DNA from: a virus
Length of the DNA stretch: 25,682 nt
Strand: one strand, 5' to 3'
Virus record (IMG/VR): IMGVR_UViG_3300018421_000183
Location: 1-25,682 of that record
The notes below the pieces were generated by a model. The model did no database searches, had not been told where the DNA came from, and saw only the letters and a program-made list of their open reading frames with translations. The position numbers and the translations under genes are program-made. Below are positions 3,001 to 18,870 of this stretch, one piece after another (position 1 is the first letter of the stretch; every line of letters begins with the position of its first letter).

Positions 3001-6000
3001 ACATCAACGAGTACACCAACGTCAACCAAGTCACATCCTTCGGTGCTGCTCAACCGATCTACACAGACTTCAACAATACTGAGGTTCTGTTCCGTAAGAA
3101 GCGTTTGACCAACTCCGAGGAAATCCTCACATCCATCGTTAAGAAACTGGATGATATTGCAGATCAGTTTGATGGTATCCAGACTGCATTCAATCTTAGT
3201 GTTGAAGGCGAGCAAGTCATCGTCAAGAACAACCAGTTGTTGATCACTCTGAACGGCATCATTCAGGCACCTGTCGATGCTTACGATATTGTTGGCGGTC
3301 AGATTGTCTTCAAGGAAGCACCGAAGGCACCTTCTAAGGTTGTCTATCGTGATGTGGGTGTTGAGTTCCTGACTGTAACTCGCCTCAACTTGTCTGATGT
3401 TTCTGGTATCTATCCTGAGATTGGATATCAAGTCTCTGGTGCTGCTAGCGATGCGTTTGCAACTGTAGTTGCATCTGGTACAAATACTATTGATGTTGTT
3501 GATATTACTGGTGGTCCTTTCCAGAACAACGAAAGAATCGATGTTTCTGCTCTTGGATTCAGTGCACTGATTGGTTCACAGCAAGTCCTCACACAGTCCA
3601 CACTGTATGAGTTTGATGAAACCTTGGTTTGCACTAACCGCAGCCGTGGCAACCCGACTGCACAGGTCAATGCCATCAACCTCGATGAGGATGGCGATCC
3701 CAGTAGTGCAATCGTTGTTAGCAAAACAACTGGTACTGCTAAGTATGAGACTGGTGTATTCGACTTCCGTCTGCAGGATATCATCTACTCGACTCGCTCC
3801 AACTTGGCAGCACGCATCACATTCCTGGCACCTTACAGAGATCCCGCCACTAACGATGTTGTTGGTGAACAGATCCTGACTGCTGGTTCTTCGTTCTACG
3901 GTCTGCTGTTTGAGCGTATTGTTAGCACCAGTTATCCAAACATCCTGCTGGATGATATTTCTAAGTCCACTATTACGCCTACCGAACTCTTTGACGATGA
4001 AGAGCGTATTAACTCGTTCTTCCTCGATTTTGAAGAAGTTCGTTCTACTGAGGTAACTTATACAGATCTTTCTGCTGGTGTCTTCAGCAATGGTGATGAT
4101 ATCCGAAACATTAAGGTCTTCTATAACAACCCCATTTACGGTGCACAGTATGGAACTGCTGCAAACCGTTACTACGATGCTAGAAATCGCATCGCAGGGT
4201 CCAAGGATGAAATCATTGACTTTGCAACTGCAGAAATCGCAGTTGAGCATGAAGACTTCTACTATCCTGGTCAACCTCAGACAGATCCCCGTTCTAGATT
4301 CCGTGATGGTTATCGCCTGATCATCAAGAACAAGGATTGGATTGTTGCCAAGACTTATCAAGACATGATCCTTCAGTATCCTTCTCTGGTGGTTCCGAAT
4401 ACCGATAAGTGCAAGCGTGACCTGGGACACTTTGTTGATGCAGTTGCATACGACACCTATGCAGGTGGTAACAAGTATGCCCGCAAGTTTATCCAGATGT
4501 ACTTCACATCTCAGGGTCTTGGTTACATCAACCAGCAACTTGCAGAAACCACCTGGGCATATGGTCGTGCAGCAACCTATATGAAGGATGCTATCACCAA
4601 CCAACTGTCAGGTTCTGAGACTATTGATGCTGTGGTATACACCAAGTATCAAGATCTCACCGTTACTGAGGGTGGCGCTACCTATGGTGCACCTGGAACG
4701 GTCAGCAACACTGATACTGGTGCTTGTGCAGATGTCCAATCAGCAGTTGATACTCTCGAAGAGGCAATCACCGAGACACTGCTTGGTAACCAAGACTTCG
4801 ACGACATTGACGCCGAAGAGCCCACATATAATGCTACTGAAGAAAAATGCCGTCGTGACGTTGGTTATTTCGTCGATGGTCTCGCACAGGACGTTGGTCA
4901 AGGCGGAAACCTGGGTGTTGTTACTTGGGCACGATTCTACTTCCAGAATGGAACTTTCATCAGCAACGGTGTTGCTGGGGAAGAAGCAGAAACAATCACC
5001 GCTCTGAACAAAGCACGCGATCTTGCTAAGAGAGCAATCAACAACCTGCTGTATGTCAAGGATCTGACAATCCTGAACGATCCTGCATCCTATGGCGGTT
5101 CTGCTCCTGGTCATGATTATGATGCAAACTACGCTTCTGGCACAAACCAGGATGCTACTAACTGTGCAGACGTTCAGTCCACCATTGACACTTTGACTAC
5201 GATTGCTACTACTGCAATCAACAACCAAACACTTGCAAACATCAACGCTCTGTCTTCCATCGACGATGGTTCCTTCAGAGATGGCGAAACGGTTCGTGTC
5301 ATCAAGGTTGCATATAAGAATAAGTCCACAGGTCTGTTCAACAGACTGGATTCTGTTCGCGGTGTCACCTCTGGTGCAACCATGACTCTTGAGGGCGTCA
5401 ACTCTGGTCTCAAGTGGTTGTTTGCTTCTAGTGTAGGTATTACTGGCACTTTCCAAGATGATGAGTATATCACCAACTCCACCATCACTAACCCTGGTGC
5501 TGCACAAGTTACTCAAAGTGTTCTGAATGTCAAGACTGACTTGGCAAACAGCACGAAGTCTCTGAAGTTTGTTGCAAACTCCTGGCTGAAGAAGGCAGAG
5601 TCCTACGACGTAGACTTCGGAACTGGTGACTTCACTCTGGAAGGTTGGTTCTACCCCACTGGCATTGTTGGTCAACAAACCCTCTTTGACTTCCGTCGTA
5701 CATCGACTGAGGGTCTGATAGTTGAGATGAACAATGACACTCTCCGCGTTTATAACGGTTCTAGCGTCATTATCCTTTCAAATGCAGTCTTTACTGCAAA
5801 CACATGGCACCACGTCGCAGTCGTCAGAACATCTGGCGTAATGCTTGCGTTTGTGGATGGTGTTCAGGCAGGCGGCACTGCTACCAACAGTGATGACTTC
5901 GGATGGGGTCCTTGCTATATCGGTTCTAACCTGAATGGTTCCAATGGTTTCATTGGTAATGCAGATAACATTGCAGTCTACAAGGCATATGCCAAGTTTA

Positions 6001-9000
6001 CTTCGGCATTTACTGCTCCTACCAGCAATAACTGGGATGATGAAAGAATCGTCCTGGGTCTGAATGCTGAGCAACCGTTTATCATTTCCACTGCTGAGGT
6101 ATATGCCCAGTACAGCGGTCAGACAGTATCGTCTGCGACTGCTAAGAGAATCGACTACGCCGATAAGCGTGTAATCGTTGAGGACATTGATCTGGGTCGT
6201 GACTCTCATCGTAATGCTGCAGACCTTATCCTCAAGAACGATAAGTGGATCTCTGAGGTTGCTGTCGGTCGTATGAAGGCGAAGTATTCCGACTTCGTGA
6301 TGCCTGGTGATGATCCTGCAACCAACACGTATCAAGGTACCTACTATTGCCTCCGCGACACTGAAGAGTATATCCTCGACGCTATCGTTAAGGACCTGAA
6401 GTATGGTGGTGATTACTATACAACCGTCGCGGCCAAGGGTTATCTGGAAAAAGATGGCAGTCTGGACTTCATCGGCAAAGAACTTCTGCAATCTCTGTAC
6501 GCATGGGAGCAAGCAGGCGAACTCTGTAAGTATGTTGTTTCGACAACTGACACAGATCTGACAGATGCATATACAGAAAAACTTCGCATTCCTCTGACTG
6601 GTACTGCTGCAACGCAGGCAGTTCTGGATAACATCGACTCTCTGACTCAGAACATTCTGAATATCCTTGCACCTACTGGCGATCGTTTCCGCGATGCTGG
6701 TGATGCTCTGTGGTTGAACAGAACTTACATTGCTGAGGAAGTTGTTGGTTACATTGAGAACAAGTGGGAAGTTACCATCAACGGTACCTACTATGACAAG
6801 CTGCAAATCCCTGGTGGCAACAACGGTCAGGTTTGCATCCGTGACATTAAACAGTACATCATCCCTGCAATCATTGCTGACCTGCTTACAGGTGGTAATG
6901 CAGCAGTCAATGAAGTCCTCGACTTCTACCTGAATGGAGAGCAAGATATTCTCCACGTCAGCGAAGAACTGCTGCCGATGCTGGATGCAATCTCCTACAC
7001 CAAGTACCTGTCTACTAAGGCAATCAACCAACTGCTTGTCCAGTTCGGTCAGGCACCCAATGCTGCTCAGGGTTCTACAAACTACGATGATTACTACATC
7101 GCTCAGTACACTCAGCAAGTTCCATACATCGATCACACGGTCACTGTCGATCCTCAAGGTTATGACGCTAACCGTGCTGACAACAACCTGCTGATTGATG
7201 CAGCAGACATGATTGAGAGGAACAAGAAGCAGATTGCTTCTGAGGCAGTCATGAGAATGAATGACCTCGCTAAGTTCCAAGATCTGCAGATCCCTGGCGG
7301 TCAGCAGAACTGTATCGATGACGTGATTGGTTTCATTGAGGCACTTGTCCACGACATTCGTTTGGGTGGCAACAGCAAGGTCTTTGATGCTGCTGAACTG
7401 TATATCGAACCTGAGAATAACTCGCTCCGCCACATCGAGAGTGAGGCAGAAGCATCCATCTATGCATACAAGATGGCGAGAGACATCTGTGTTCTCGCAA
7501 TGCGTAACGGATTCGGACGCGATAACATCTATGGCTATGGGGCTGGTGAGGAAAATGATCCTAGCGTTGAGTCTTACGATCAGAACCCACAACCTTCCCG
7601 TTATATCGATGCTGCAAACATCCTCGACAGAAATATCCGTTTCATCGCTGAGGAAGCAGTCTATCGCACAACCGTCCAATATCCTGGTCTAACGATTCCT
7701 GGTGGCAACATCAACTGTGTTCATGACATTGCAGACACCCTGAATGCAATGGTCTTCAACATGAAGTACGGTGGCAACAACATGGTTTATGACGCTGCTG
7801 AGTTCTACGTGGGTACCTCTGGTCTCCAGCACGTTGCATCTCAGTCTGCCGAGTCCATCTATGCATTCAACCAGGCACGCGACCTTGCGATTCAGATTAT
7901 GCGTGCAGTTCCCGTCATCAACACTGGTAACGAGGTTCATGGGTTTGAGCAAAAGTATTATGACGAACTCGATTACGAACCCTACAAGTCCAGAACACGC
8001 GATTATGTGACTCTGGATGAGGATGCTCTGACTGGTGGCACAACTGCAAACCGCTCCCGTGCTGCTGACGCATACAACCTGATCTATAACAACGCTCGTT
8101 GGATTGCAGAAGGTGTTGTCAATACCTTCGTTGCAACTAATGGTTGGTCGATCCCTGGCGGTGCTGTTTCCTGTATCGATGATACAGAGCGTATTCTCAA
8201 GGGTGTTGCATATCACGTCGCTTACGGCGGTAACTCCTACGTCTGGGATTATGCAGAAGAGTACACCAACAGCAGCCACATCAGTGGTCAGCAGCAAGGT
8301 TGGACACAGGCGATCTTCAACTACATCAACAGCAACATCCTGCCCGATGTTATCCGTAACATCCAACCTAGTGCCGCAACTTCCTGGAACACTGCAGGTC
8401 GTACAGATCTTCAACAGTACAGAGATCTCACGATCACTGCTGACGTGACTCAACCCGCATGTCCAACTGAGGTTTCTGCTGCTACCACACTGCTGTCGAT
8501 CGTCACTGACGCTGTAGTAAATGGCAACATGAACCATGCAACTCGCACGGTTCCTCCTGGCGGTGGTGCATGTGCAAACGTCGAGTCTGCAATCACCGAT
8601 CTGTTCTCAATCGTCACCGATACAATCAATGACTACACCAGTCTGGGTGGCGTCACTCGCACATTGCCGAGCATCTGGCCTCTGAAGTATACCGCAGATT
8701 CTGCTGAGCGTGACCTTACAATCACCTACGACACTACTGCCTCTTCCTTTGGTACCACTTGCCAGAATGTTGAAACAACCATCAACGGTCTGTTTGATAT
8801 CGTTCTGCAAACAATCACAGATGCAAGTGCTGCAACCCCCAGCAACTATCTGGATAGTATCACCAGAACACTGCCCACAAACGCATTCACAAACACCCTG
8901 TATCAGCAATATACCTGCTACAACGTGATTGATGCTGCATGGACTTTGTTCGATCTGATGCTGGATACTCTGGGATCTGGTTCTTACTCGAATCGACTGA

Positions 9001-12000
9001 CTGCAGAGTTCATTCGTAAGAATGATCACGCGATTACTGCTCGTGCAGTGGCAGCAACCCTTGCACAATATCCTACAGGCAATATCCCCGATCTGGCATT
9101 TGCACAGGATGTTCTTGAGGCATGTATCTACGATATTGCAACTGGTGGTAACGCAGGTGCATTCAAACTTGCAAATGAGTGGTTCGATGGTGAAGGCAAC
9201 TTCATCGCTTACCCTGATATCCAGAGAATCCGCCTCCTGTACTGCATGAACAAGGTTCGTGAGTATGCGAAGGATGTGATGTTCAACTTTGACGATCCTG
9301 GTTGGAATACCTACAACGTTTGGAGTCCTGAGCAAGTTCAGGGTTACACTCCTCGCCTGGAGTGGGATCAGGAGAGCACCGAGTTCAATATGGACTCCTC
9401 TCTCAACTGCCTGGAGTTTTCTATCGAGCGTGGCACGTTCCCCTCTGACAACGTGGTCACATTCGTTGCTTCCACTGACGCCCAGAACCTCACCAACTCT
9501 TACAACGAAGGCGAAGACTACAACACAGATCCCGCTCTGGTTCTGCTCACTCCGACAATCGAAGTCGGTTGGGAGCGTGAAGAAAACCGCGTACGCATTA
9601 ACCGTACCAACTTCTTCCGCCGTGGCGATGTTCTGAAATACGTCCTCGCATCTGCAGTTTCTCTGGACGGTGCAAACGATCAAGATTACTACTACGTTCT
9701 CAACGCAGAACCGCAGTGGTTCGAGATCTCTCGTATGCCGAAGCATGATGCTCGTTTCCGCGACTTCACTTTCGATCTCACAAACACAGGTAACCAGCAG
9801 TTCTTCACTGCTCGTCGTGCAGGTGTTACTCGCGTTGCCAACGATTACGGCACACGCGATATCCAGACTCCCATTTCTGCTGGATTCAACATCGCAGACG
9901 TGCTTGTTGGCACGACAACTGGTGCTTCCGCCGAAGTATCATCCACCTTTATCAATGCTGCAAAGATTGTTAAGACCTTCAAATACTATGGTCTTGAAAC
10001 GATGTCTGCGACTACCTTTATCGACGGCGAACAAGTTGTCGTACAGGGTGCTGTCACAAACAACGGTTATGTAATGCAGCACGTCATTCCTGACGAGTTT
10101 GACAATGGTTGGATCAAACTTGAAACCATCCAAGGCACAATCTCTGAGGGAGATATTCTTGAGGGCATCACATCTGGTGCAACCGCGACTGTAACTGCAG
10201 TTGACGAAGATCGCCTGCTTCTTAACGCCAAGACTGGCATCTTTAGTCAGGGTGACTGGTTGTTCAAGAAAGATACCGCGACCGAAGCATATATTGATGT
10301 CTTCAATGACAAGCGTGGTGTTCTTACCGCAACTGACGGTGGTCGCATCACCATGGATGTTGAGACAATCAACAGCGCCTGGGAAACTGGTGACGTGATC
10401 TACGGTTCCATCACAGACAAGTATCTTGATCTGGTTGGCATTGATGATCAGGGTCAGGCAATCTCCGTGAACACCTACGTACACGGTCAGAAAGTCTACA
10501 AACTGTCCCTTTCTAGCGTCTCACGCGATACGGGTTACACTGGCAACTTTGTTTCTGGTGATACCGTATACCTGCTGCAGGGAACAACCATTGCGGTACC
10601 TGGCATTACGGCAACTGTCACTCAGTGGGATAATCGTCCCGATGATGGCGTGAATGACCTTTACATCACCTCGCCCGTACAGACAGGTGGCGGAAACGTC
10701 CCTGTAAGCACATTTGGAGATGGTGGTTACAACGTTGGTAAGTTTGAGAACCTCAACAACTTCCCGCTGATCTTTGCATCTGGCACCTTTGTTGAGACTT
10801 CCTATTCCGCCTACGGCAAGATTGCCAAGATTGAGCAAACAGGTACAACCGCTCGCTGCTGGTTGGAAGAAGTTGAAGGAGACTTCCTCACAAACATGAC
10901 TGTCACATCTGATGGTGGTTGGCAGGCAGGTGTCTCGCTAGCGAAGGACTTGATTGGTCGCGTGGATCGCTACTTCCGTGGATTTGACGGTTCGCAAACA
11001 ACGTTCAAACTGACCATCGCAAATGGTGAGCAATATCTGCCCGACCCTGCAGGTCACATGCTGATCTTCGTGAACGGCATCCTTCAACCTCCTGGCGCTG
11101 CTGCTGCGTACACCGCGTCTTCGGACGAGATTACGTTTACAGAGGCACCTGAAGTTGGATCTGAGTTCATCGGTTACTACATCGGTAAACTCCGTCAACT
11201 GGATGACATTAGCTTCGAGTTTGATTCACTCCGCTCTTCGTTCAACCTCAAGTATCAGGGTGGTTTCTACTCCCTGACCCTGACTGAAGGTGTTTCCTCC
11301 AACACTATCCTGCCCGAGAACAACATCATCGTTTCGCTCAACGGCATCATTCAGGAACCTGGAGTTGGTTATGAGATCGTTGGTTCTCGTATCATCTTCT
11401 CCGAGATTCCTCGCGCAGGCACGACCTTTGTAGCATTCAGCTACATTGGTTCTGACGCGGACGTTATTGCCGCAACAGTCGTTCCGCCGATTGAAGCAGG
11501 TGACCAACTCTTCATCGAAGGTGAAGATGAGGCAGAACCGCGTGAGGTTGCTCTGATTGAATCCTCCAACTCGCTGGTTACCTTCGAGTACACAGGCACA
11601 GTCAAGGGTCGCAACGCTTCCGCGCTGGCGAATATTCGCCAAGGTACGCTTTCCGCAGCAATCATCACCAACCCTGGTAACGGTTACACCTCACGTCCGA
11701 ATGTTGACGTGATCTCCTCCAGTGGTTTTGACGGTCGCGTACGTGCACAAATGGGTGTCGCAAGCATCCAAGTTAAGACTCCTGGTGTTGGTTATGCACT
11801 GCCTGTGGTCAGCGTTCTGACAACAGTTGCTGATGACTTCACAACACCTCAGGGTGCTCCGATTAACGGTGGTTTCGATGTCTTCGCAGGCGAGGCAATC
11901 GATGCTACCACAGGTGATGTAATCACCATTGAGTCTGGTGCAATCCAGATTACCCGTCAACCTTTGAACATCACAGTCAACCAAGGTCAGACTGCAGTGT

Positions 12001-12299
12001 TCAATGTGATCGCAGTGTTCAACGCTGCTGATGGCGATCCCCTGGGCGTGACCGAGGGTCTGAACTATCAGTGGCAGAAGAAGAACTACGGCGAGACTAA
12101 CTGGAACAACATCATCGGTGCAAACCAGGCAATCTACACAACCAGCAGCACCATTCAAGGTGATGATGGTGATGAATATAGAGTTGCAATCACATACGCA
12201 GGTGCAACACCTGTCTACTCCAACTCCTCTGTCCTCACGGTACAGACGGGCGCTACTGTGATTGCTAACTTCGATCCCTCGTCTATTTTCGCACAATAA
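3..12299 (+). CDS. Giant modular virion structural protein, 5'-partial (baseplate/tail, in the gp7 position)
   Basis: The frame is open from the first complete codon at 3 to TAA at 12297-12299, giving at least 4098 residues; the true start lies upstream, so the first internal ATG at 354 is not the start. Modules in order: two CBM5/12-like segments (180-330, 408-551), PGxGY glycine-rich repeats (1578-2165), an 'LNGI' fibre module (3162-3369), helical repeats, a LamG-like domain (5550-6029), more helical repeats to about 9290, T-T/SG-A modules (9897-10193), two further fibre modules (10971-11455), PGxGY repeats (11653-11820) and an Ig-like domain (about 11940-12255). No signal peptide or membrane segment is visible. 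It lies upstream of a gp8-like gene, where T4 carries gp7 (wedge, about 1030 residues), but I see no convincing gp7 similarity. A structural role in the baseplate or attached fibres is inferred from position and modules; carbohydrate-binding modules suggest contact with the host surface. A giant tail fibre is the alternative. Confidence 0.85.
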   Translation, partial: VPTGTIENPGLGTTYKIGNIFPAAATFNTTDKIRSTSATDAGLNVITGITFTVARDFVEWEQAASYTAGDQVYSKGNIYTATTNGTAGTDEPVHTTGNASDGGVSWDFTVSADTPLEVDLSNTAYPTPKDPLWTKLKIYDIGDVVYYGRNKYTATAAGRSSQNPPTHTTGTATDGTVTWQHTLTYNPLSDYATFKEFDAGENWYSLTVNEIYSDSNFIANDNLSIGGSVTVNPKEDAPTILQINGIGSVKEISLIAVLDKTILVDTQQRTDLVYCVANSAHKYSANDILFTEGFSTSEFNGSFFVKEVFSSREFTFQVRETPTAEPAFLQNSIARVNIYTKHPTLLLIRNHNYLFDMSDSSNLGYYLSFSQDNEFKLEYSFNNIERQGTPGVFDGTNAPFVKLKVDGQVTNISYYFDPSRTGANSPVGGKSFIDVKKTPFDGRYVVSNIISQNEFQFPLLFEPENNNAEIGSDDQNNPYSVYSTTSKRAIGPIADIKLISAGGFYQKLPIISDIASFRQIERVEIISGGSEYAIGTYDQVPINGDGEGGLCRIEVAVDEEIGSGTIVSVTVTDPGKGYTIASIDVDGISGILGPTLTGSGADLNVIIPDEGTGASVFLTGKNIGKIKKLKNNEFGYGYSHDYTLKPEITFPINLQLFNTSILSQITITDPGAGYTSAPAVIIEGGGGVGAEAVAIVRNNRLSEIQIKNPGAGYSSEPVVTLKSEFNYVVNLDLNYLQFNFPHGITNGAAIQFRADDVGNTVGELPKPSSAGLTSLVVGQTYYAIAGESNSLEGDQLRFALTPADAESGNFITFLTQGAGRQVLLTEVFGGRAEAVVETSRFLEGEKVYQGTSEEDATVVAYVSENNGWQLGPKILKLVNATGTFVVGERVNGSVSRASGVIDNVSLAKGVLNIDSLTQTPGRFIDDVGKPSEIVQKIQDSFFYQNFSYVIKSTIPINRWREQILENNHPTGFNMFGQLQLTGGKDISGRKVGTEFIKQVNINEYTNVNQVTSFGAAQPIYTDFNNTEVLFRKKRLTNSEEILTSIVKKLDDIADQFDGIQTAFNLSVEGEQVIVKNNQLLITLNGIIQAPVDAYDIVGGQIVFKEAPKAPSKVVYRDVGVEFLTVTRLNLSDVSGIYPEIGYQVSGAASDAFATVVASGTNTIDVVDITGGPFQNNERIDVSALGFSALIGSQQVLTQSTLYEFDETLVCTNRSRGNPTAQVNAINLDEDGDPSSAIVVSKTTGTAKYETGVFDFRLQDIIYSTRSNLAARITFLAPYRDPATNDVVGEQILTAGSSFYGLLFERIVSTSYPNILLDDISKSTITPTELFDDEERINSFFLDFEEVRSTEVTYTDLSAGVFSNGDDIRNIKVFYNNPIYGAQYGTAANRYYDARNRIAGSKDEIIDFATAEIAVEHEDFYYPGQPQTDPRSRFRDGYRLIIKNKDWIVAKTYQDMILQYPSLVVPNTDKCKRDLGHFVDAVAYDTYAGGNKYARKFIQMYFTSQGLGYINQQLAETTWAYGRAATYMKDAITNQLSGSETIDAVVYTKYQDLTVTEGGATYGAPGTVSNTDTGACADVQSAVDTLEEAITETLLGNQDFDDIDAEEPTYNATEEKCRRDVGYFVDGLAQDVGQGGNLGVVTWARFYFQNGTFISNGVAGEEAETITALNKARDLAKRAINNLLYVKDLTILNDPASYGGSAPGHDYDANYASGTNQDATNCADVQSTIDTLTTIATTAINNQTLANINALSSIDDGSFRDGETVRVIKVAYKNKSTGLFNRLDSVRGVTSGATMTLEGVNSGLKWLFASSVGITGTFQDDEYITNSTITNPGAAQVTQSVLNVKTDLANSTKSLKFVANSWLKKAESYDVDFGTGDFTLEGWFYPTGIVGQQTLFDFRRTSTEGLIVEMNNDTLRVYNGSSVIILSNAVFTANTWHHVAVVRTSGVMLAFVDGVQAGGTATNSDDFGWGPCYIGSNLNGSNGFIGNADNIAVYKAYAKFTSAFTAPTSNNWDDERIVLGLNAEQPFIISTAEVYAQYSGQTVSSATAKRIDYADKRVIVEDIDLGRDSHRNAADLILKNDKWISEVAVGRMKAKYSDFVMPGDDPATNTYQGTYYCLRDTEEYILDAIVKDLKYGGDYYTTVAAKGYLEKDGSLDFIGKELLQSLYAWEQAGELCKYVVSTTDTDLTDAYTEKLRIPLTGTAATQAVLDNIDSLTQNILNILAPTGDRFRDAGDALWLNRTYIAEEVVGYIENKWEVTINGTYYDKLQIPGGNNGQVCIRDIKQYIIPAIIADLLTGGNAAVNEVLDFYLNGEQDILHVSEELLPMLDAISYTKYLSTKAINQLLVQFGQAPNAAQGSTNYDDYYIAQYTQQVPYIDHTVTVDPQGYDANRADNNLLIDAADMIERNKKQIASEAVMRMNDLAKFQDLQIPGGQQNCIDDVIGFIEALVHDIRLGGNSKVFDAAELYIEPENNSLRHIESEAEASIYAYKMARDICVLAMRNGFGRDNIYGYGAGEENDPSVESYDQNPQPSRYIDAANILDRNIRFIAEEAVYRTTVQYPGLTIPGGNINCVHDIADTLNAMVFNMKYGGNNMVYDAAEFYVGTSGLQHVASQSAESIYAFNQARDLAIQIMRAVPVINTGNEVHGFEQKYYDELDYEPYKSRTRDYVTLDEDALTGGTTANRSRAADAYNLIYNNARWIAEGVVNTFVATNGWSIPGGAVSCIDDTERILKGVAYHVAYGGNSYVWDYAEEYTNSSHISGQQQGWTQAIFNYINSNILPDVIRNIQPSAATSWNTAGRTDLQQYRDLTITADVTQPACPTEVSAATTLLSIVTDAVVNGNMNHATRTVPPGGGACANVESAITDLFSIVTDTINDYTSLGGVTRTLPSIWPLKYTADSAERDLTITYDTTASSFGTTCQNVETTINGLFDIVLQTITDASAATPSNYLDSITRTLPTNAFTNTLYQQYTCYNVIDAAWTLFDLMLDTLGSGSYSNRLTAEFIRKNDHAITARAVAATLAQYPTGNIPDLAFAQDVLEACIYDIATGGNAGAFKLANEWFDGEGNFIAYPDIQRIRLLYCMNKVREYAKDVMFNFDDPGWNTYNVWSPEQVQGYTPRLEWDQESTEFNMDSSLNCLEFSIERGTFPSDNVVTFVASTDAQNLTNSYNEGEDYNTDPALVLLTPTIEVGWEREENRVRINRTNFFRRGDVLKYVLASAVSLDGANDQDYYYVLNAEPQWFEISRMPKHDARFRDFTFDLTNTGNQQFFTARRAGVTRVANDYGTRDIQTPISAGFNIADVLVGTTTGASAEVSSTFINAAKIVKTFKYYGLETMSATTFIDGEQVVVQGAVTNNGYVMQHVIPDEFDNGWIKLETIQGTISEGDILEGITSGATATVTAVDEDRLLLNAKTGIFSQGDWLFKKDTATEAYIDVFNDKRGVLTATDGGRITMDVETINSAWETGDVIYGSITDKYLDLVGIDDQGQAISVNTYVHGQKVYKLSLSSVSRDTGYTGNFVSGDTVYLLQGTTIAVPGITATVTQWDNRPDDGVNDLYITSPVQTGGGNVPVSTFGDGGYNVGKFENLNNFPLIFASGTFVETSYSAYGKIAKIEQTGTTARCWLEEVEGDFLTNMTVTSDGGWQAGVSLAKDLIGRVDRYFRGFDGSQTTFKLTIANGEQYLPDPAGHMLIFVNGILQPPGAAAAYTASSDEITFTEAPEVGSEFIGYYIGKLRQLDDISFEFDSLRSSFNLKYQGGFYSLTLTEGVSSNTILPENNIIVSLNGIIQEPGVGYEIVGSRIIFSEIPRAGTTFVAFSYIGSDADVIAATVVPPIEAGDQLFIEGEDEAEPREVALIESSNSLVTFEYTGTVKGRNASALANIRQGTLSAAIITNPGNGYTSRPNVDVISSSGFDGRVRAQMGVASIQVKTPGVGYALPVVSVLTTVADDFTTPQGAPINGGFDVFAGEAIDATTGDVITIESGAIQITRQPLNITVNQGQTAVFNVIAVFNAADGDPLGVTEGLNYQWQKKNYGETNWNNIIGANQAIYTTSSTIQGDDGDEYRVAITYAGATPVYSNSSVLTVQTGATVIANFDPSSIFAQ
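180..551 (+). repeat. Tandem CBM5/12-like modules in the giant protein
   Basis: Two related segments lie about 75 residues apart. Each has an aromatic lead-in, then Y-x-x/I-GD-x-V-Y, a K/N-x-Y-T-A-T strand, then H-T-T-G-x-A-x-D-G and a V-x-W end. This is the layout of small chitin/cellulose-binding modules (CBM5/12-like), which occur on phage tail proteins as glycan-binding appendages. The conserved aromatics and the GD turn are visible; carbohydrate binding itself is inferred. Confidence 0.5.
1578..2165 (+). repeat. PGxGY glycine-rich beta repeats, N-terminal block of the giant
   Basis: Three units have the form (V/I)xI(T/K)(D/N)PGxGY followed by a short beta strand and a Gly-rich turn (near 1713, 2004 and 2124). 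The block opens with a GTYDQVPINGDGEGG-type segment at 1605-1652 that reappears in the gp8-like gene at 18022-18069. Similar repeats occur in the 15443-17302 gene and at 11653-11820. They are probably beta-structured spacer or trimer-forming elements; no catalytic motif is seen. Confidence 0.6.
3162..3369 (+). other. Fibre-type 'LNGI' module, copy 1
   Basis: The segment reads FDG-x-Q-T-x-F-x-L, then LLITLNGIIQ, a Y-D-I-V-G turn and I-V-F-K-E-A-P. The same plan occurs twice near the C-terminus (10971-11190 and 11208-11455). This motif is frequent in phage tail and fibre proteins and marks a beta-rich structural domain. Confidence 0.55.
4638..8990 (+). repeat. Dispersed short 'DLTIT ... C-x-x-V' repeats (six copies)
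   Basis: Short units with a Cys followed by (A/Q)(D/N)V(Q/E)(S/T)-x-(I/V)-x-x-L-x-x-I-(V/T) lie near 4723, 5161, 8457, 8568, 8759 and 8925. Four are preceded by a strand reading (Q/K/R)DLT(I/V)(T/L). They link or follow the long helical repeats: two sit between long copies 1-3, and four form a tandem run between copies 7 and 8. The helix is amphipathic with a heptad-like spacing. No function is recognised. Confidence 0.6.
5550..6029 (+). other. LamG/concanavalin A-like domain in the giant
   Basis: A roughly 160-residue beta domain shows the LamG_3-type signature: SLKFVAN start, a D-F-T-L-E-G-W-F-Y-P strand, then NTWHHVAVVRTSG, F-V-D-G-V, Y-I-G-S-N and a closing F-I-G-N-A-D-N-I-A-V-Y strand. 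Such jelly-roll domains bind glycans in many extracellular proteins and occur in phage tail proteins. It sits as an insertion between long helical repeats 2 and 3, so it probably projects from the rod. Ligand and role are inferred. Confidence 0.8.
9897..10193 (+). repeat. G-x-T-(T/S)G-A-x-A-x-V modules in the giant
   Basis: Two close copies read DVLVGTTTGASAEV (near 9897) and DILEGITSGATATV (near 10149), each followed by short beta strands and a further G-D-x-(L/V) turn. The same unit is found in the DUF4815-type gene and, weakly, in the two genes before it. It looks like a small beta module used many times across this cluster. Confidence 0.6.
10971..11455 (+). repeat. Tandem fibre-type 'NGI' modules, copies 2 and 3
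   Basis: Two consecutive modules read F-D-G/S...T/S-x-F-x-L, then L-I-F-V-N-G-I-L-Q-P-P-G or I-V-S-L-N-G-I-I-Q-E-P-G, then a Y-x-x-x-S/G turn, I-(T/I)-F-(T/S)-E-(A/I)-P and a G-(S/T)-x-F strand. They match copy 1 at 3162-3369, some 2500 codons upstream. They are probably beta-rich structural units close to the C-terminus. Confidence 0.6.
11940..12255 (+). other. C-terminal Ig-like domain of the giant
   Basis: The segment begins ITRQPLNITVNQGQTAVF and runs through N-Y-Q-W-Q-K, a W-N-N-I-I-G-A turn, D-D-G-D-E-Y-R-V and Y-S-N-S-S-V-L-T-V. The W and the D-x-D-x-Y positions fit an Ig fold, although the canonical disulfide Cys pair is absent. Ig-like domains are common accessory domains on virion proteins and are thought to make weak surface contacts. 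After it comes a short tail with FDPSSIFAQ, echoed at the end of the next gene. Confidence 0.75.
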
Positions 12300-12312: not shown

Positions 12313-13908
12313 ATGACAGCAACTGCTGAGTATAATCCATCAACTAACATTCTGACAGTTACGGGGGACGGGTTGCCAACCCCCGTAGCTTACGGAACGT
12401 TCCCTAATGCAAACAACCCAAACACTGTTACACAACAGGCGTTTGAGCATGACTTCTTTTTTAGAGGTGGTACATTTGGCATTGCTAGAACGTTTGACGA
12501 TAATACTTGGTCGAAAGAAGGATACGTTATCACTATCCCGCTATCGCCAGATGACAACACTCTTCTGAGTGCAGATCCCTTTTCTGGAACTATTCGTCCT
12601 GGAGACAACTTACTGTTTGTATTCAGTGATGGAAGAAAGCAAAAGTTTGTCTATCAAGGAACAACGTTTACTTCTACCCCTGGCAACTGCTGGAGAAGTA
12701 CGGATACAACACTTGACTTGATCGTTGCAGATTCGTCGTATGGCGATACTGGCACATACACATATTATGATCAGAGAAACGGTAGAACCCCCACACCTCT
12801 GGGTATTATTGGCGTATCCTCAAACGGCGTTGCTCTATTCAATCCCAGTGCGGGGGCAGGTGGAAACCCACCGACAGGATTTAACTGGAATGCACACTAT
12901 GAGTTGTCCCCAGTAGATTTTGGTGATGACCAGTGTGGTGGTCACCCAGAGAACACAGGACAATATCACTATCACGATACACACTTCATTGACTGCTGGA
13001 AAGAAAACTCCATCATGTCAACATATAATGATTATTACGGTCTGACCCAGTACAACGGTGACAATCTGAGACATCCTGACGGTCATTCCAAGCTGCTTGG
13101 TATCGCTTTTGATGGATTCCCCGTATATGGTCCGTTTGCATATTCGGATCCTTGGGATAATGAATCCGAGATCACCAATATGACTACATCATACGATCTC
13201 AAACCTATTGAACCTGAAGGTAGACCTTCATATGGTAGTACCCTTCAGAACCCCCCTGCAGGGTCATTTATGCAGGACTGGGAGTACAACGAGGGGCAGG
13301 GTTCACTCGACTACCATAACGGACGTTTTTGCCTTACCCCAGAGTATCCAAACGGCACTTATGCATATTTCCTGACAGTCGATGAAACAGGAGAAGCACA
13401 GTTCCCATACATGATTGGTCTGACATCCAGACAGAGTATTGATCAACCACCGAACAATGGTGCTGCTGCACCTCCTGATCCTGGTGCTGGTGGTGAGGGT
13501 CCTGGTGGTGTTGCACCTACCCTGCAGATCAACACGCAACCCCAGAACGTCACACTCAACAGTGGACAAGTTGCAACATTCTCTGTTTCTGCAACCATCC
13601 TGCCCGAGAATGGACCCAAGACTTATCAGTGGTTCAGATCTACTGATGGTGGTTTCTCATACTCCACTCTCAATGGTGCAACGTCCTCGTCCTACTCTTT
13701 CACTGCACTGTCTTATATGACAGGGTATAAGTTCAAGGTAGAGATCCGTGGACCTATCGGTGCTCCAGCACCTGCACAAAACTCTCCGCTGACTTCCGAC
13801 GTTGCAACTCTAACCGTAACAGGTGTGGGTGGTGCAACTGGCGATACTCAGTTTGATGCTACTGCGACAACGTTCGACAGCACATCTACCCGTTTCGATC
13901 AAACCTAA
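12313..13908 (+). CDS. YHYH-domain virion protein with C-terminal Ig-like domain
   Basis: 531 residues, ATG 13 nt after the stop of the giant, with no clear Shine-Dalgarno sequence. Residues about 50-375 match the YHYH family: a GQYHYH motif at 216-221, a following HFIDCW, then FDGFPVYGP (about 266-274) and a G-S-L-D-Y-H-N-G-R-F segment with a Y-P-N-G-T-Y-A-Y-F strand. YHYH proteins are poorly characterised; the dense His and Tyr suggest metal binding, which is inferred. A Pro/Gly linker (about 376-400) leads to an Ig-like domain (406-506; INTQPQNVTLNSG, then YQWFRS) and a short FDSTSTRFDQT end. Position and the Ig domain argue for a virion component, perhaps at a fibre or baseplate tip. An enzymatic role for the YHYH part cannot be excluded. 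Arg codons are more often AGA here than in the giant, a possible sign of separate acquisition. Confidence 0.8.
   Translation: MTATAEYNPSTNILTVTGDGLPTPVAYGTFPNANNPNTVTQQAFEHDFFFRGGTFGIARTFDDNTWSKEGYVITIPLSPDDNTLLSADPFSGTIRPGDNLLFVFSDGRKQKFVYQGTTFTSTPGNCWRSTDTTLDLIVADSSYGDTGTYTYYDQRNGRTPTPLGIIGVSSNGVALFNPSAGAGGNPPTGFNWNAHYELSPVDFGDDQCGGHPENTGQYHYHDTHFIDCWKENSIMSTYNDYYGLTQYNGDNLRHPDGHSKLLGIAFDGFPVYGPFAYSDPWDNESEITNMTTSYDLKPIEPEGRPSYGSTLQNPPAGSFMQDWEYNEGQGSLDYHNGRFCLTPEYPNGTYAYFLTVDETGEAQFPYMIGLTSRQSIDQPPNNGAAAPPDPGAGGEGPGGVAPTLQINTQPQNVTLNSGQVATFSVSATILPENGPKTYQWFRSTDGGFSYSTLNGATSSSYSFTALSYMTGYKFKVEIRGPIGAPAPAQNSPLTSDVATLTVTGVGGATGDTQFDATATTFDSTSTRFDQT
13528..13840 (+). other. C-terminal Ig-like domain of the YHYH protein
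   Basis: The domain begins INTQPQNVTLNSGQVATFSV and contains T-Y-Q-W-F-R, a Y-S-T-L-N-G-A turn, a G-Y-K-F-K-V strand and a final V-A-T-L-T-V strand. It aligns by eye with the Ig-like domain ending the giant (QP-x-N-x-T-x-N-x-GQ-x-A-x-F, YQW, LTV), so the two neighbouring proteins carry related C-terminal domains. Confidence 0.7.
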
Positions 13909-13933: not shown

Positions 13934-15439
13934 ATGTCTAAGCAGAATATTGGTATTGGTTCTGCCGCTAATGACGGTACTGGCGACACCCTAAGAGACG
14001 GTGCCGTCAAACTTAATAACGTCATTGATGAACTTTACGATCGTCTTGGTAATGGCACCGATATTCTGATCAATATCGGTGCTGGTATCACAGACGGTCA
14101 AGTTCTTCGTTTTAGAACCGACCCACAAGCAGAGTTTTATGGGGATCACCTAGATACCCTGACTGCAGACCTGGATGTCAGTGGTTTTAACATTACATCT
14201 AACAGCAATGGTAATGTCACACTCAAGCCAAGTGGCGTTGGTGATATTAACTTCTGGGGTGGGAATAGTGGCACACCGTATACCTATATTGATGGTGCAG
14301 ATGGATACCTGAAGTGGTATGCACCATACAGCGAGTTGGCAGACCTCCCGAACGCCACAAACCATCATGGCATGTTTGCACATGTTCATGATACTGGTAA
14401 GGGTTATTTTGCACACTCCTCTTCCTGGATTGAACTGGTTGACGTAAACAGCAGCATTGGTGATCTGTCCGACGTTGACATGACTGTCGGTGGTGGTCCC
14501 TCTAACGGTCAGATACTAAAGTGGAACTCCACAACTTCTAAGTTTGAACCTGCCAATGATGCTACTGGTGAAGGTGGTGTCAGTGGCACACAAAACCTGT
14601 GGGAAACTTTCAATGCGGATACTGGCAGTACAACTGCTAGTGCTGCACAGGATGTTCTGACAATCACTGGTGGTACAAATATCTCCACATCTATCACTGG
14701 AGATACCTTGACCATTGATATGACGGGTGCTCTGGGTGATCCAGACCAAAACCTGTTCAGTGTGATTGGTTCGGATAGTGGCAGTAAGACTGCTACCACT
14801 ACAACATCTCAGATTAACCTTGTTGGTGGTACAGGTATTTCGACAGCGATTTCTGGCGATAACCTAACAATCACCAATGATTCACCCAATATCACCCAAA
14901 ACCTGTACGAAACAATCAATGGTGATACAGGATCTCAAAGTGCATCTGCTGCAACTTCTGAGGTAACTTTCACTGGTGGTACAAACATCTCGACTGTTAT
15001 TACTGGTGATGGTTCTAGTACGATCGTCACGATTAACAACACTGCCGCTGCTCTGCCTTCGGTTGCTGAAGGGCAATCGATTGTAGGTACAGGGACCGAT
15101 ACCTATTCCGCATATGCATCACCTGTACTCTCCTGGAGTATTACAGCAAACGGTTCTACTGCATATAGATTTGATGGTCCTGGTCTGAGCAATACCACAG
15201 ACAACCCAACAATCTATGTCTATAGAGGTTTCACATATAGATTCAACAACACCACTGGTACAGGTCACCCATTTGAAATCCGCGTTGGATCGGGTGGTGC
15301 TGCTGTAACGGATGGCATATCTGGATCTATCACTGGCGTTCTTGTCTACACAGTCCCCATGTCTGTGAGTGCAGGTACGACTTATGTGTATCAGTGCACC
15401 ATCCATGGTGGCATGGTCGGAAACATTGTAGTGGTCTGA
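13934..15439 (+). CDS. Tail-fibre-like protein with C-terminal cupredoxin-like domain
   Basis: 501 residues. The N-terminus (IGIGSAANDGTGDTLRDG, then LNNVIDELY) resembles the start of several marine-phage fibre or structural proteins. Residues about 60-215 are beta-rich with a GDINFWGG segment. Three repeats of about 50 residues follow (219-265, 271-316, 321-370). The last part, about 376-501, resembles a small blue-copper domain: IYVYRGFTYRF strand, GHPFEI with His445, then Y-V-Y-Q-C-T-I-H-G-G-M with Cys488, His491 and Met494 and an IVVV end. The C-x2-H-x2-M spacing is that of amicyanin. Copper binding is inferred from the four intact ligands. No export signal is present, as expected for a virion part. 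It stops 3 nt before the next gene, suggesting translational coupling. A role at the fibre tip, for stability or host contact, is a guess; electron transfer is possible but has no partner here. Confidence 0.8.
   Translation: MSKQNIGIGSAANDGTGDTLRDGAVKLNNVIDELYDRLGNGTDILINIGAGITDGQVLRFRTDPQAEFYGDHLDTLTADLDVSGFNITSNSNGNVTLKPSGVGDINFWGGNSGTPYTYIDGADGYLKWYAPYSELADLPNATNHHGMFAHVHDTGKGYFAHSSSWIELVDVNSSIGDLSDVDMTVGGGPSNGQILKWNSTTSKFEPANDATGEGGVSGTQNLWETFNADTGSTTASAAQDVLTITGGTNISTSITGDTLTIDMTGALGDPDQNLFSVIGSDSGSKTATTTTSQINLVGGTGISTAISGDNLTITNDSPNITQNLYETINGDTGSQSASAATSEVTFTGGTNISTVITGDGSSTIVTINNTAAALPSVAEGQSIVGTGTDTYSAYASPVLSWSITANGSTAYRFDGPGLSNTTDNPTIYVYRGFTYRFNNTTGTGHPFEIRVGSGGAAVTDGISGSITGVLVYTVPMSVSAGTTYVYQCTIHGGMVGNIVVV
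14588..15043 (+). repeat. Three ~50-residue fibre repeats
   Basis: The units start at 14588, 14744 and 14894. They share (T/D)QNL, then (A/S/G)D(T/S)GS, a strand and turn ending in GGT-x-IST-x-I-(T/S)-GD and a final strand such as LTI. The spacing is 52 and 50 residues. Regular beta repeats of this kind are typical of trimeric fibre shafts. Confidence 0.75.
15059..15436 (+). other. Cupredoxin-like (amicyanin-type) domain
   Basis: The ligand set His445 (codon at 15266), Cys488 (15395), His491 (15404) and Met494 (15413) is complete. The C-terminal part (Y-V-Y-Q-C-T-I-H-G-G-M-V-G-N-I-V-V-V) can be placed residue by residue against the amicyanin end (Y-D-Y-H-C-T-P-H-P-F-M-R-G-K-V-V-V), and the His-to-Cys distance is 43 residues against 39 in amicyanin. 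The strand before His445 also fits the fold. Similarity was judged by eye. Confidence 0.65.
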
Positions 15440-15442
15440 TAA

Positions 15443-17302
15443 ATGGCAAGAACAGTCCCAGGAAGCGGCGCTCAAATATCTCCAGTATTCAACAGCACTT
15501 ACGGTGTCCGTGAGGTGTATGTTGTTGATGGTGGGTCTGGATATGATGCCAATGACCCACCACAACTTACTATTGGTAACTGTGGTACACCTCTTCGTGA
15601 TGCTGTTCTCAGACCAATCATCAATACTGCAGGAGAGATTCAAGCAGTAGAAGTTCTTGATCCTGGCGAAGGATATAGTCCACTTCGTCTTGTAATCAAT
15701 AGTACCGATACGGGTGCTTTTGGTGCTGGCGGTCAAGTCTTTTTGAATGAAACTGGTGGTGTTGACTACATCCAGTTGACCAGAAATGGTGATAACTATT
15801 TCGGTGGTACTACTGCATCGATTGTCGGTGGTGGCGGTGCTGGAGCTGAACTGGTGCCCGTTACTGGTTTTGTGACTGGTCTGTCTCTCGAAAATGTCGG
15901 TCGTAACTACACTAGATCCGATATTGCTCTTGTTATCGCTGGTGGCGGTGGTGAAGGTGCAACAGGTATCTGTGAGGTAAACGAGTTTGGTCAGGTTGAG
16001 AATATCAACATCAGCAACCCTGGTGAGTTCTTTGAGACTCCTCCTATCATTCAGTTGATTGGTGGTGGTGGATCTGGTGCAACTGCTGAGGCAGTTGTCA
16101 ATCTTGGTAGGATTGAACAAATCAACATCACAAATCCTGGTGGCGGATATACCTCTCCTCCCCAAGTTATCTTCACAAGAAATACAAACCTTGTTAGAAC
16201 TGCGAGAAATAGACAGTCTCTGAACTCGGTTCTGTATAACATTACAGGTCTTACTTCGGACGTTGGTGTCTCTGACACCACAATCAACGTTGAAACCACT
16301 GCAGCATTCCCTGGTTCTGGTAAGGCACAGATCGGTAAAGAGATCTTCCGTTATACATCAAAGACTGCTACGCAGTTCAAGGGTATTACAAGAGGCATCA
16401 ACTTCAAGTATGACCAAAAAGTTATCCTTGATGCTCTGCAGAATGATCCCAACACGGGAATAACTGGATATCAGTTTGCCATTAACGATCGTGTTCGTCG
16501 TGTTCAGGAATCGGCAGATAACAAGATCGCTATTGTTTATGACTGGAGACCTGAGACCAGAGAACTGTATCTGGTGTTTGAGGTTGACGAACTGGCATTT
16601 ATTGATGCTGGCAAATCCCAAGCAGAGACAAAGATCATCACATTCATTGCTGGTGTTGCTGGTTCTTCTGGAACTGGTGTAGAACCTCACGTAGTCCTGG
16701 ATTCCCCTGGTGATGAGATTGTTTTGTTTACATCTCCACTTTCAGTCAGACCTGATAGTAGGTTTGAGGATGACGATGAACTAGAGGGTGCTGGTGATGG
16801 CATCATCGATATCATCAACACAGGCACCGACTTTGAATATGAAGTAAGTCTTGATGGTGGTATTGCTTCATCTAAATATGGTATTGAGGAAACTGTTGGT
16901 GGACAAAATACCACACTTCTTCAGATTGGTGATCGTGTGTTTGATGGTAGTCAATCACCTCTAGTTGCAACAGTCCAAGGTGCAGGTGCACTTGGAGACG
17001 GCGAAGCTCACTCCGCCGACATCAGAATGATCATCAAAGATTGGAATGGTATCACACAGTTCTTAGTTGGTGAGACTATTCAATCTTCTGTTTCTGGTGT
17101 TAGTGCAACTCTGGATTCTGTGGATTATTCGCCAACAGGATACGGCACAGGATATGTGCAACTTAATCTATCCGCTCCCGTCAATAATGGTGCGAACTAT
17201 AAGTTCGATCCAACTGATGCTATTTCTGGTGGTAGCTCAAGTGCGTCGGGTAATCTCTGGGAGGTCTATTACGATTACCTCCTGAGAAACGAACCAGAAT
17301 AA
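15443..17302 (+). CDS. Glycine-rich PGxGY repeat virion protein (baseplate-associated)
   Basis: 619 residues, ATG 3 nt after the TGA of the preceding gene, no clear ribosome site. Residues about 20-250 contain five or more PGxGY-like units (GGSGY, LDPGEGY, NVGRNY, SNPGEFF, TNPGGGY), each followed by P-x-x-x-(I/V) and a GGGGxGA turn. A segment near 16317-16402 reads IGKEIFRYTSKTATQFKGITRG, a small module also found at 25160-25290 in the DUF4815-type gene. The C-terminal part has a DRVRRVQESADNKIAIVYDW stretch, acidic linkers and one weak G-x-x-SG-x-S-A unit (17071-17112). No known enzyme motif is seen. Its place directly before gp8 suggests a wedge-associated or fibre-attachment protein; it may belong to an unnamed family common to marine T4-like phages. 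Confidence 0.75.
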   Translation: MARTVPGSGAQISPVFNSTYGVREVYVVDGGSGYDANDPPQLTIGNCGTPLRDAVLRPIINTAGEIQAVEVLDPGEGYSPLRLVINSTDTGAFGAGGQVFLNETGGVDYIQLTRNGDNYFGGTTASIVGGGGAGAELVPVTGFVTGLSLENVGRNYTRSDIALVIAGGGGEGATGICEVNEFGQVENINISNPGEFFETPPIIQLIGGGGSGATAEAVVNLGRIEQINITNPGGGYTSPPQVIFTRNTNLVRTARNRQSLNSVLYNITGLTSDVGVSDTTINVETTAAFPGSGKAQIGKEIFRYTSKTATQFKGITRGINFKYDQKVILDALQNDPNTGITGYQFAINDRVRRVQESADNKIAIVYDWRPETRELYLVFEVDELAFIDAGKSQAETKIITFIAGVAGSSGTGVEPHVVLDSPGDEIVLFTSPLSVRPDSRFEDDDELEGAGDGIIDIINTGTDFEYEVSLDGGIASSKYGIEETVGGQNTTLLQIGDRVFDGSQSPLVATVQGAGALGDGEAHSADIRMIIKDWNGITQFLVGETIQSSVSGVSATLDSVDYSPTGYGTGYVQLNLSAPVNNGANYKFDPTDAISGGSSSASGNLWEVYYDYLLRNEPE

Positions 17303-17334: not shown

Positions 17335-18870
17335 ATGGCGTTACTTACTGACCAGTTTAGGATTTTTACTGCTAACAAGTTCATCAAGGCGTTGGAGGGA
17401 CCTGATCCCATCCAATCTGACATTGATGCTGGGGCAAGTAGAGACCGTCTGTACGTTTTCATTGGTCGTCCACAATCGTGGGACAATGAAAATAATCCAC
17501 CGACACCTATTGACTCTTTCCAAGAGTTTTCGGATGTCTTTGATGACATGATTTCGCTCAAGCGTGTGCTTGCGAATGACGTTATCCAAGTTATCCGTCG
17601 TGTGGACTGGACACCTCCCGAACAAACCACTGGTGGTTTGGGTTATGTCTATGACATGTATCGTCATGACTACAGTTCTACCAAGACTGCATCTTCTGGT
17701 GCTACCAAACTGTATGACGCCGACTTCTACGTGGTTAACTCCTCGTATCAGGTCTATAAGTGCATCTACAACGGAACATCCCCTTCTGATCCGAACGGTA
17801 AGCCCTCGACTGTTGAACCGACTGGTACTTCTACATCTGTTATTACTACCTCTGACGGTTATCGTTGGAAGTATATGTACACCATCCCTGTGGGACAGGT
17901 GCTGAAGTTCTTCTCTGGCGAATATATGCCAGTGTTGAGTGACGTTGCTGTGCAGTCCGATGCTATCGGTGGAGAAATCGACACCGTTGTTATTCAGGCA
18001 TCTGGTGCTGGTTACAACAATGGTACATACGAGAACGTCCCCATCAAGGGTGACGGTACTGGTGGTCGTGTATCGCTGGTTGTTGATGGTGGTAAGGTCG
18101 TTTCTGCAACTGTAACCTCTGGTGGTTCTGGTTACACATTCGGTAAAGTCATCATTGACGAAGTGAACGGTATTGGTGCTGGTGCTGGTGCTGGTGCAAC
18201 TATCGACGTTATTATTCCCCCTGTTGGCGGTCACGGTGCTACACCTCCTGTCGAACTGGGTGGTTTCCGAGTAATGATCAACACGAAGTTCACTTATGCT
18301 GAAGGTAGCGGTGACTTCCCAACTGATAACGACTATCGTCGTATTGGTCTGGTGATCAACCCAAAGAGATTCGGTACTGCTGAACTGGTATCCGATCTCA
18401 CCCTATCTGGAACGTATGCATCTATCTTCCCTGCATCGTTTACAGGTCAGTTCCAAACTGATGAAATCATCACACAATCTCGTACTGTTGGTGGTCAGCA
18501 AGTGACTGCTCGTGGACGAGTCATCTCCTGGAACTCCACAACCAAAGTTTTGAAGTATTACCAGAACAGAGTTGACGGTGTGTTCCCTGAAATCACAGGT
18601 AACCTCGTTGAGTTTGAAGGTGGTAACGCAATCGTTGGTGCAACATCTGGTACCTCTGGTGACCCAGATATTAACTTCCCGATTGTCGCAGGTGCATCAA
18701 CTCGTGTTATTAACAACACAGAATATGACCTGGGTATGTCATTCACAAACGGATATGCATCTCCCGAGATCCAACCGAACTCTGGCGATGTCATCTACAT
18801 AGATAACAGGAGTGCGATTTCTCGCGCTGGTGACCAAATCGAAGATATCAAAATCGTAATCGAGTTCTAA
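17335..18870 (+). CDS. 8: Baseplate wedge protein gp8, enlarged
   Basis: 511 residues against 334 in T4 gp8. The N-terminus aligns by eye: TANKFIKALE / TSKFRTEKML, then DRLYVFIGRPQSWDNENN / NTIFITFGRSEPWSSNEN, then R-R-V-D-W / P-R-R-D-W. DGYRWKYMYTIP matches DGYVWEYLFEIP, and SGDVIYIDNRSAI...DQIEDIKIVIEF matches SGEMIYMENRPPI...DQTEEINILFTF at the C-terminus. The extra length comes from a glycine-rich insert (about 220-300, PGxGY type, shared with the giant) and a second beta-rich insert (about 350-460) holding a VGATSGTSG unit. In T4 gp8 is a dimer in each wedge, next to gp6, gp7 and gp10; the inserts may hold extra decorations. It has its own late promoter and ribosome site, and ends one base before the next ATG. 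Confidence 0.9.
   Translation: MALLTDQFRIFTANKFIKALEGPDPIQSDIDAGASRDRLYVFIGRPQSWDNENNPPTPIDSFQEFSDVFDDMISLKRVLANDVIQVIRRVDWTPPEQTTGGLGYVYDMYRHDYSSTKTASSGATKLYDADFYVVNSSYQVYKCIYNGTSPSDPNGKPSTVEPTGTSTSVITTSDGYRWKYMYTIPVGQVLKFFSGEYMPVLSDVAVQSDAIGGEIDTVVIQASGAGYNNGTYENVPIKGDGTGGRVSLVVDGGKVVSATVTSGGSGYTFGKVIIDEVNGIGAGAGAGATIDVIIPPVGGHGATPPVELGGFRVMINTKFTYAEGSGDFPTDNDYRRIGLVINPKRFGTAELVSDLTLSGTYASIFPASFTGQFQTDEIITQSRTVGGQQVTARGRVISWNSTTKVLKYYQNRVDGVFPEITGNLVEFEGGNAIVGATSGTSGDPDINFPIVAGASTRVINNTEYDLGMSFTNGYASPEIQPNSGDVIYIDNRSAISRAGDQIEDIKIVIEF
17998..18231 (+). repeat. PGxGY-type glycine-rich insert in gp8
   Basis: Two units (SGAGYNNGTYENV and SGGSGYTFGKVII) with a GDGTGG turn and a G-A-G-A-G-A-G-A run lie between the conserved N-terminal and C-terminal gp8 parts. 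The block corresponds to 1578-1844 of the giant: GTYENVPIKGDGTGG against GTYDQVPINGDGEGG, ending IDVIIPPVGG against LNVIIPDEGT. It is absent from T4 gp8. Confidence 0.75.

Follow-up and report, generated by a model that had tools for sequence, protein, structure and literature searches.

A cupredoxin-like domain with a putative type-1 copper site on gp9-like baseplate connectors of marine cyanophages

Within a cupredoxin fold, the combination of one cysteine, two histidines and one methionine is a copper ligand set. Amicyanin carries these ligands in the order His...Cys-x2-His-x2-Met, whereas the Cys-His-Met spacing of plastocyanin differs from C-x2-H-x2-M. In both proteins the residue after the first histidine is usually asparagine, and the exposed histidine of electron-transfer cupredoxins is surrounded by small, uncharged residues. 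Cyanophages are described as carriers of the plastocyanin gene petE (PMC3037559, PMC2984593). Metal sites are also known from phage tails. Iron-binding HxH sites are described for the tail fibres of T4 (gp37) and of the alterophage R22Y, together with a 'Trojan Horse' idea (PMC11705849), and the YHYH domain of phage tails is predicted to combine a zinc site with a hydrolase (PMC7824862). The T4 protein gp9, which forms the socket of the long tail fibre, is a trimer present in 18 copies. It binds gp7 through its N-terminal domain and carries the long fibre coaxially on its C-terminal domain; in the baseplate switch it swivels along with the fibre and binds gp10 (PMC3004832). Among the open-access papers listed by the literature searches, none described a cupredoxin or plastocyanin-like domain in a virion protein. 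A type-1 copper domain in such a protein thus appears to be new, while cupredoxins and phage-tail metal sites as such are already known.

The window analysed here is a record of 25,682 bases from a virus of marine bacteria and represents part of the viral genome. It contains an intact forward-strand ORF (13934-15439) that starts with ATG and encodes a 501-residue protein, assigned here as a gp9/gp10-like connector between baseplate wedge and tail fibre with a cupredoxin domain. The N-terminus, a gp9/10-type segment common to T4-like phages (residues 3-57, 13940-14104, + strand), matches the Pfam family T4_gp9_10_N (PF07880) with 31.3 bits against a cut-off of 25. The match spans positions 1-54 of the 175 positions in the model, and nothing matches past residue 57. 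The protein continues with three repeats of about 45-50 residues each, which begin at residues 221, 273 and 323 and were located in the translation (14594-15049, + strand), followed by the cupredoxin-like domain (residues ~400-501, 15131-15436, + strand). Among phage families, phrog_677 ('baseplate wedge tail fiber protein connector') matches the whole protein best (E 1.8e-138), and the cupredoxin domain on its own aligns to positions 302-409 of the 412 positions of this family (E 6.8e-44). A preliminary description of this DNA had proposed a phage-type N-terminus, regular repeats and a domain that belongs to a structural gene rather than to a soluble plastocyanin gene, all of which agree with these results. 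The C-terminal domain that it placed at residues 376-501 is present in slightly shorter form, the cupredoxin core covering residues ~400-501.

The neighbours scanned around this ORF are structural genes. The next gene (15443-17302) shows baseplate wedge matches and contains no Cys-His-Met motif, and the ORF at 17335-18870 encodes a gp8-like protein. The scanned genes are bracketed by two giant ORFs (3-12299 and 18872 to the end of the window). The gene neighbourhood, PF07880 and phrog_677 are features that the window protein shares with T4 gp9/gp10, although the match to the T4-type model is confined to residues 3-57. Directly upstream lies the gene of a YHYH-domain protein (12313-13908; Pfam 2.1e-38), which falls into phrog_25852, a family of virion structural proteins. 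The YHYH domain is likewise tail-associated and predicted to bind metal, but it is not a cupredoxin. Within the window protein itself, residues 144-152 (14363-14389) form the histidine-rich stretch HHGMFAHVH with the HxH pair His150/His152, which may be a second, iron-type site. A similar motif occurs in 44 of 73 sequences collected with a gp9 pattern loose enough to pick up other proteins as well.

The C-terminal domain was modelled with AlphaFold2 using 36 sequences (the window and 35 relatives). The relatives are 35 of 36 representatives, L001 having been dropped as identical to the window. The model has a mean pLDDT of 94.5 and a pTM of 0.86. A Foldseek search of the PDB returned cupredoxins, copper nitrite reductases or multicopper oxidases in all of the best 50 rows. 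A three-domain nitrite reductase ranked first (3.8e-5), followed by amicyanin and rusticyanin (both 7.7e-5), with plastocyanins close behind. Structural alignment by VIA-align to the nitrite reductase 2dv6 gave a Z score of 10.7 and an rmsd of 2.2 over 93 residues. In a profile search against PDB sequences, nitrite reductase scored 4.4e-4 and amicyanin 1.6e-3, and the alignments matched the Cys-His-Met loop. Single-sequence searches give only hints (Pfam E 0.18; PDB amicyanin E 0.3). As judged from the model, the C-terminal ~100 residues almost certainly adopt a cupredoxin fold, a Greek-key β-sandwich, as had been suspected at the outset.

Assignment to a described family is a separate matter. 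PF13473 (Cupredoxin_1) has no match in the window record. The domain reaches 16.6 bits (E 0.01) with PF00127 (Copper-bind), under the curated cut-off of 21.2 bits, and 17.4 bits with the NCBIfam amicyanin model TIGR02657, under its curated cut-off of 110.2 bits. Among the phage family, 26 of 36 members match PF00127 at E values up to 1, the best being 0.0015. Because the scores stay below the curated family cut-offs, the label 'cupredoxin' is used here by fold and ligand set only, and the domain is neither an amicyanin nor a member of PF00127. Its predicted fold resembles that of the N-terminal part of 2dv6, amicyanin, rusticyanin and plastocyanin, and the profile alignments match the ligands, whereas identity in the structural alignments is only ~18-28%. 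Further differences are the fusion to a baseplate protein and a proline after the first histidine. This residue, Pro446, is found in 141 of 147 distinct phage domains. Since proline rather than asparagine follows the first histidine, the site may be differently tuned.

The four putative metal ligands of the window domain are His445 (15266-15268), Cys488 (15395-15397), His491 (15404-15406) and the putative axial ligand Met494 (15413-15415), all encoded on the + strand and assigned from sequence and conservation. The loop reads C488-T-I-H491-G-G-M494, which is the C-x2-H-x2-M spacing of amicyanin as seen in the PDB amicyanin alignment. The His...Cys-x2-His-x2-Met order is thus common to amicyanin and the phage domain, and the residue numbers and spacing given in the preliminary description are correct. 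In the AlphaFold2 model, which contains no metal, Cys488 closes a strand, His445 stands just ahead of one, and the loop that precedes the last strand contains both His491 and Met494. The four residues occupy the places of type-1 copper ligands in the predicted fold. Cys488 is the sole cysteine of the 501-residue protein. The ligand cysteine is likewise the only one in 43 of 53 distinct full-length gp9 proteins, the other 10 having one extra.

Conservation of the ligand set was analysed among relatives from IMG/VR. Domain similarity yielded 80 loci. One of them (L018) was left out because a contig end cuts its domain, and the remaining 79 domains represent 51 distinct ones, the window included, each of which keeps all four ligands. 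In L022, L024 and L026, His and Met are one residue further apart, and the loop of phage S-SKS1 reads C-x4-H-x2-M, so the spacing is not rigid among relatives. Since some of the search patterns held ligand residues, two ligand-blind searches were carried out. The N-terminal 139 residues of gp9 retrieved 19 loci, three of them cut by contig ends, and all of the other 16 keep the four ligands. Eleven of these sit in contigs already fetched. The five new ones (L101-L105) carry divergent domains, for example L101 and L105 with 45% and 47% identity to that of the window. The 60-residue stretch that ends before the first histidine retrieved 64 loci, many in contigs fetched earlier. Twelve are cut off, and the set is complete in 52 of the remaining 52, of which 50 were scored by script and two by eye (L246 and L244, the latter missing the piece upstream of the first histidine). 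As the ligand-blind searches give the same result, an artefact of selection by ligand-bearing patterns is ruled out.

A profile search over all fetched sequences gave 375 rows with 188 distinct domains. The four ligand columns are filled in 147 of these, and every one reads H-C-H-M, as do all 29 cluster representatives at 60% identity. The remaining 41 comprise 8 domains cut by contig ends and 33 halves of rearranged subtilase copies, and no other residue appears in the ligand columns. Across the 101 columns of the 147 domains, the four ligands and Tyr486 (15389-15391, + strand) are the only invariant residues. The loop residues 490, 492 and 493 vary and are mostly small and uncharged, as are residues 442-444. 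Invariant ligands combined with a variable loop are the pattern expected of a metal site. Random loss of ligands among homologues, which the preliminary description had named as an outcome that would refute its proposal, was not seen in any of the four sets (51/51, 16/16, 52/52 and 147/147). A chance motif is ruled out by the conservation in the 51 and the 147 distinct domains.

The domain is a widespread module and not peculiar to the window. Used as a query, it matched 336 of 50,697 phage records at E 0.01, which by the first word of their names are Synechococcus (265), 'Cyanophage' (50), Prochlorococcus (18) and 'Marine' (3) phages. Among the 60 matches listed of these 336, 47 bear the annotation gp9 or tail fiber connector. 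Searches with other members of the family retrieved 332 to 356 records and, according to name tallies only, added one or two Pelagibacter phages and, in one search, four Methylophilales phages. When residues 1-139 of gp9 served as the query, 1227 phage records matched. Judged by the first word of the name, at least 769 are from enterobacterial phages, and many of the matches extend over no more than 41-65 residues. No enterobacterial phage occurs in the complete organism tallies of five domain searches, which sets the cupredoxin end apart from T4 gp9/gp10. Because the N-terminus reaches enterobacterial phages and the domain searches reach none, the cupredoxin end seems to have been added within this mainly cyanophage group.

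The position of the module varies between proteins. In gp9 it forms the C-terminus, in the podoviruses P-GSP1 and P-SCSP2 it lies close to the N-terminus of proteins that appear fibre-like by eye, and in S-SKS1 it occupies the middle of a protein of 1727 residues. In S8 subtilases it is found at the end (S-CAM4) or internally (L189). In S-SM1, P-SSM7, S-SSM5 and Syn10 (L313, L314, L315 and L316), the gene after gp9 contains a second, more divergent HP...C-x2-H-x2-M copy by motif, so that the motif occurs in two adjacent genes; the S-SSM5 copy is noted as T4-GC 399. Another divergent copy with the ligand set is encoded near the portal gene of phage S-TIM66 (L312:2074-3531) and annotated as a virion structural protein. 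A stand-alone relative of 168 residues, annotated as PetE, adjoins an S8 peptidase gene in S-SCSM2R (L306:1794-2300). It starts like phage fibre proteins, shows no signal peptide by eye, and may accordingly be a component of the virion and not a plastocyanin.

Outside phage records, the domain had no match in 72,556 plasmid records. A scan of cellular genomes, in which each of 84,980 species was represented by one genome, yielded 8 pattern matches and 3 relatives. All three relatives are in contigs of metagenome-assembled genomes with a phage-like appearance by eye; ligand residues were part of one of the two patterns, and the scan is insensitive to distant relatives. Among 299 genomes of one phylum, including the centre genome G006, two matched at 1e-5, and some of the proteins are exported-looking by eye. 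Genome G161 encodes two tandem small proteins (L322 and L323) and G006 a lipoprotein-like relative (L321). All of them look exported by eye and keep the ligand set, and these cellular relatives are a possible source family.

A further variant is found in tail proteases. Subtilase-like proteins of S-CAM1 and of 32 IMG/VR loci have the Cys-His-Met loop ahead of the half with the first histidine. These loci were identified among 48 in total, the other 16 being copies of the gp9 type. All 32 loci (13 distinct) keep the four ligands, and C-x2-H-x2-M and HPF are retained. A circular permutation is suggested by the order of the motifs, and AlphaFold2 modelling of a rearranged copy was poor (pLDDT 52.8) and supports nothing. 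Seven subtilase-like proteins (L267, L269, L270, L272, L273, L275 and L287) contain two rearranged modules each, and the ligands of two modules in one protein could possibly pair.

Proteomic data are available for a homologue of the window protein. Locus 206 (498 aa) of phage S-SZBM1 is listed among the proteins of CsCl-purified virions with 9 peptides and 24.9% coverage (Table 1, PMC9146016). Loci 203, 204, 205, 207 (one peptide) and 208 were likewise detected in the particles (PMC9146016). Our comparison covered the sequence of locus 206, which is 59.2% identical to the window protein over its length and has an intact ligand set; the surrounding genes are of similar size and in the same order. 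The published labels are 'baseplate wedge protein' for locus 206 and 'tail fiber connector' for locus 203 (PMC9146016). Since these labels differ from ours, the name gp9 rests on PHROGs and on the GenBank names of other cyanophages. The preliminary description had placed the copper site at the tip of a fibre, but PF07880 and phrog_677 denote a connector between baseplate and fibre, and the C-terminus of T4 gp9 holds the long fibre. By analogy, the cupredoxin domain would lie at the fibre socket and not at the fibre tip. TEM of S-SZBM1 revealed no long tail fibre (PMC9146016), and the gp9 head of this phage may for that reason be exposed.

The explanation that we favour, and consider fairly probable as a whole, starts from a C-terminal cupredoxin domain whose type-1 metal site is intact and which sits at the outer end of a gp9-like connector. 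That the metal site is functional is very likely. The virus particle probably carries metal, most likely copper since the ligand set is of the copper type, and for copper as the metal in the virion we see a reasonable though not strong likelihood. The host cytoplasm keeps free copper very low. The site would take up its metal, most likely copper, after the protein leaves this compartment. The bound metal would lock the ligand loop and thereby stiffen each gp9 trimer head in seawater, where the head would dock the tail fibre or be exposed if long fibres are missing. With a gp9 copy number as in T4, each virion would contain 18 such sites. Whether the role is mainly one of stabilisation or docking, rather than redox, we regard as evenly balanced.

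Virion proteins acquire their fold in the host cytoplasm, where free copper is scarce, and zinc or iron could fill the site. It would then be built in during cytoplasmic assembly and serve only as a staple of the fold, comparable to the iron in T4 gp37 fibres, whose HxH sites demonstrate that metal staples exist in phage fibres (PMC11705849). The window protein has an HxH of its own (His150-x-His152). These iron fibres share with the cupredoxin domain a metal site in a tail protein and a proposed meaning for marine trace metals (PMC11705849), but they have another fold, other ligands and probably another metal. A pure zinc staple needs no methionine, yet Met494 is invariant in all 147 distinct domains, and a Cys-His-His-Met set in a cupredoxin fold points to copper. 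A zinc or iron staple is accordingly considered unlikely. Somewhat less doubtful, but still improbable, is a β-sandwich for receptor binding or docking that grips a host envelope or fibre protein, the metal mattering for the fold only. The occurrence of the module in gp9, in S8 proteases and in proteins whose annotation reads tail fibre or long tail fibre proximal subunit fits this role, as does the possibly exposed gp9 head of S-SZBM1 (PMC9146016). A C-terminal, middle or N-terminal position is, however, unlike that of a single receptor-binding tip.

Strict conservation of a redox-type site also raises the idea of a redox or copper sensor, in which reduction or copper loading near the cell surface would alter the gp9 head and help to release the baseplate switch. 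The mostly small, uncharged residues 442-444, 490 and 492-493 near the two histidines resemble the surroundings of the exposed histidine in electron-transfer cupredoxins, and T4 gp9 takes part in the switch through its swivelling and its binding to gp10 (PMC3004832). The module, however, also occurs in podoviruses, in tail proteases and at central or N-terminal positions of other proteins, where such a switch does not apply. We also know of no electron partner for a phage site, and a sensor is decidedly unlikely. A host plastocyanin captured for photosynthetic electron transfer would be in line with petE in cyanophages (PMC3037559, PMC2984593) and with the PetE annotation of the stand-alone relative in S-SCSM2R. 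The domain, however, ends a 501-residue baseplate protein encoded by a structural gene and is not a small, single-domain exported protein. Its Cys-His-Met spacing differs from that of plastocyanin. Nitrite reductase, amicyanin and rusticyanin are its best matches by structure and profile, though plastocyanins follow closely, and Pelagibacter and Methylophilales phages also appear in the name tallies. On the grounds of gene fusion, loop spacing and best matches elsewhere, this origin was rejected and its probability is minimal.

A metal site on the gp9 head, as favoured here, can be extended into a bolder proposal that we hold only tentatively and consider doubtful. Many ocean cyanophage virions would be cuproproteins with about 18 or more type-1 copper sites, loaded outside the host, and attachment or the baseplate switch would be governed by the metal or redox state of these sites. 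The module would have spread to gp9, fibres and tail proteases, even in circularly rearranged form, because the phage needs a copper-bound head.

If the favoured reading is true, a copper-type site conserved on the baseplates of cyanophages, with hundreds of records, would add a new component to phage entry and link viruses in a new way to the trace metals of the ocean. Some phage 'petE' annotations, such as that in S-SCSM2R, may denote virion parts and not photosynthesis genes. If virions are cuproproteins, marine phages would also constitute a pool of tightly bound copper.
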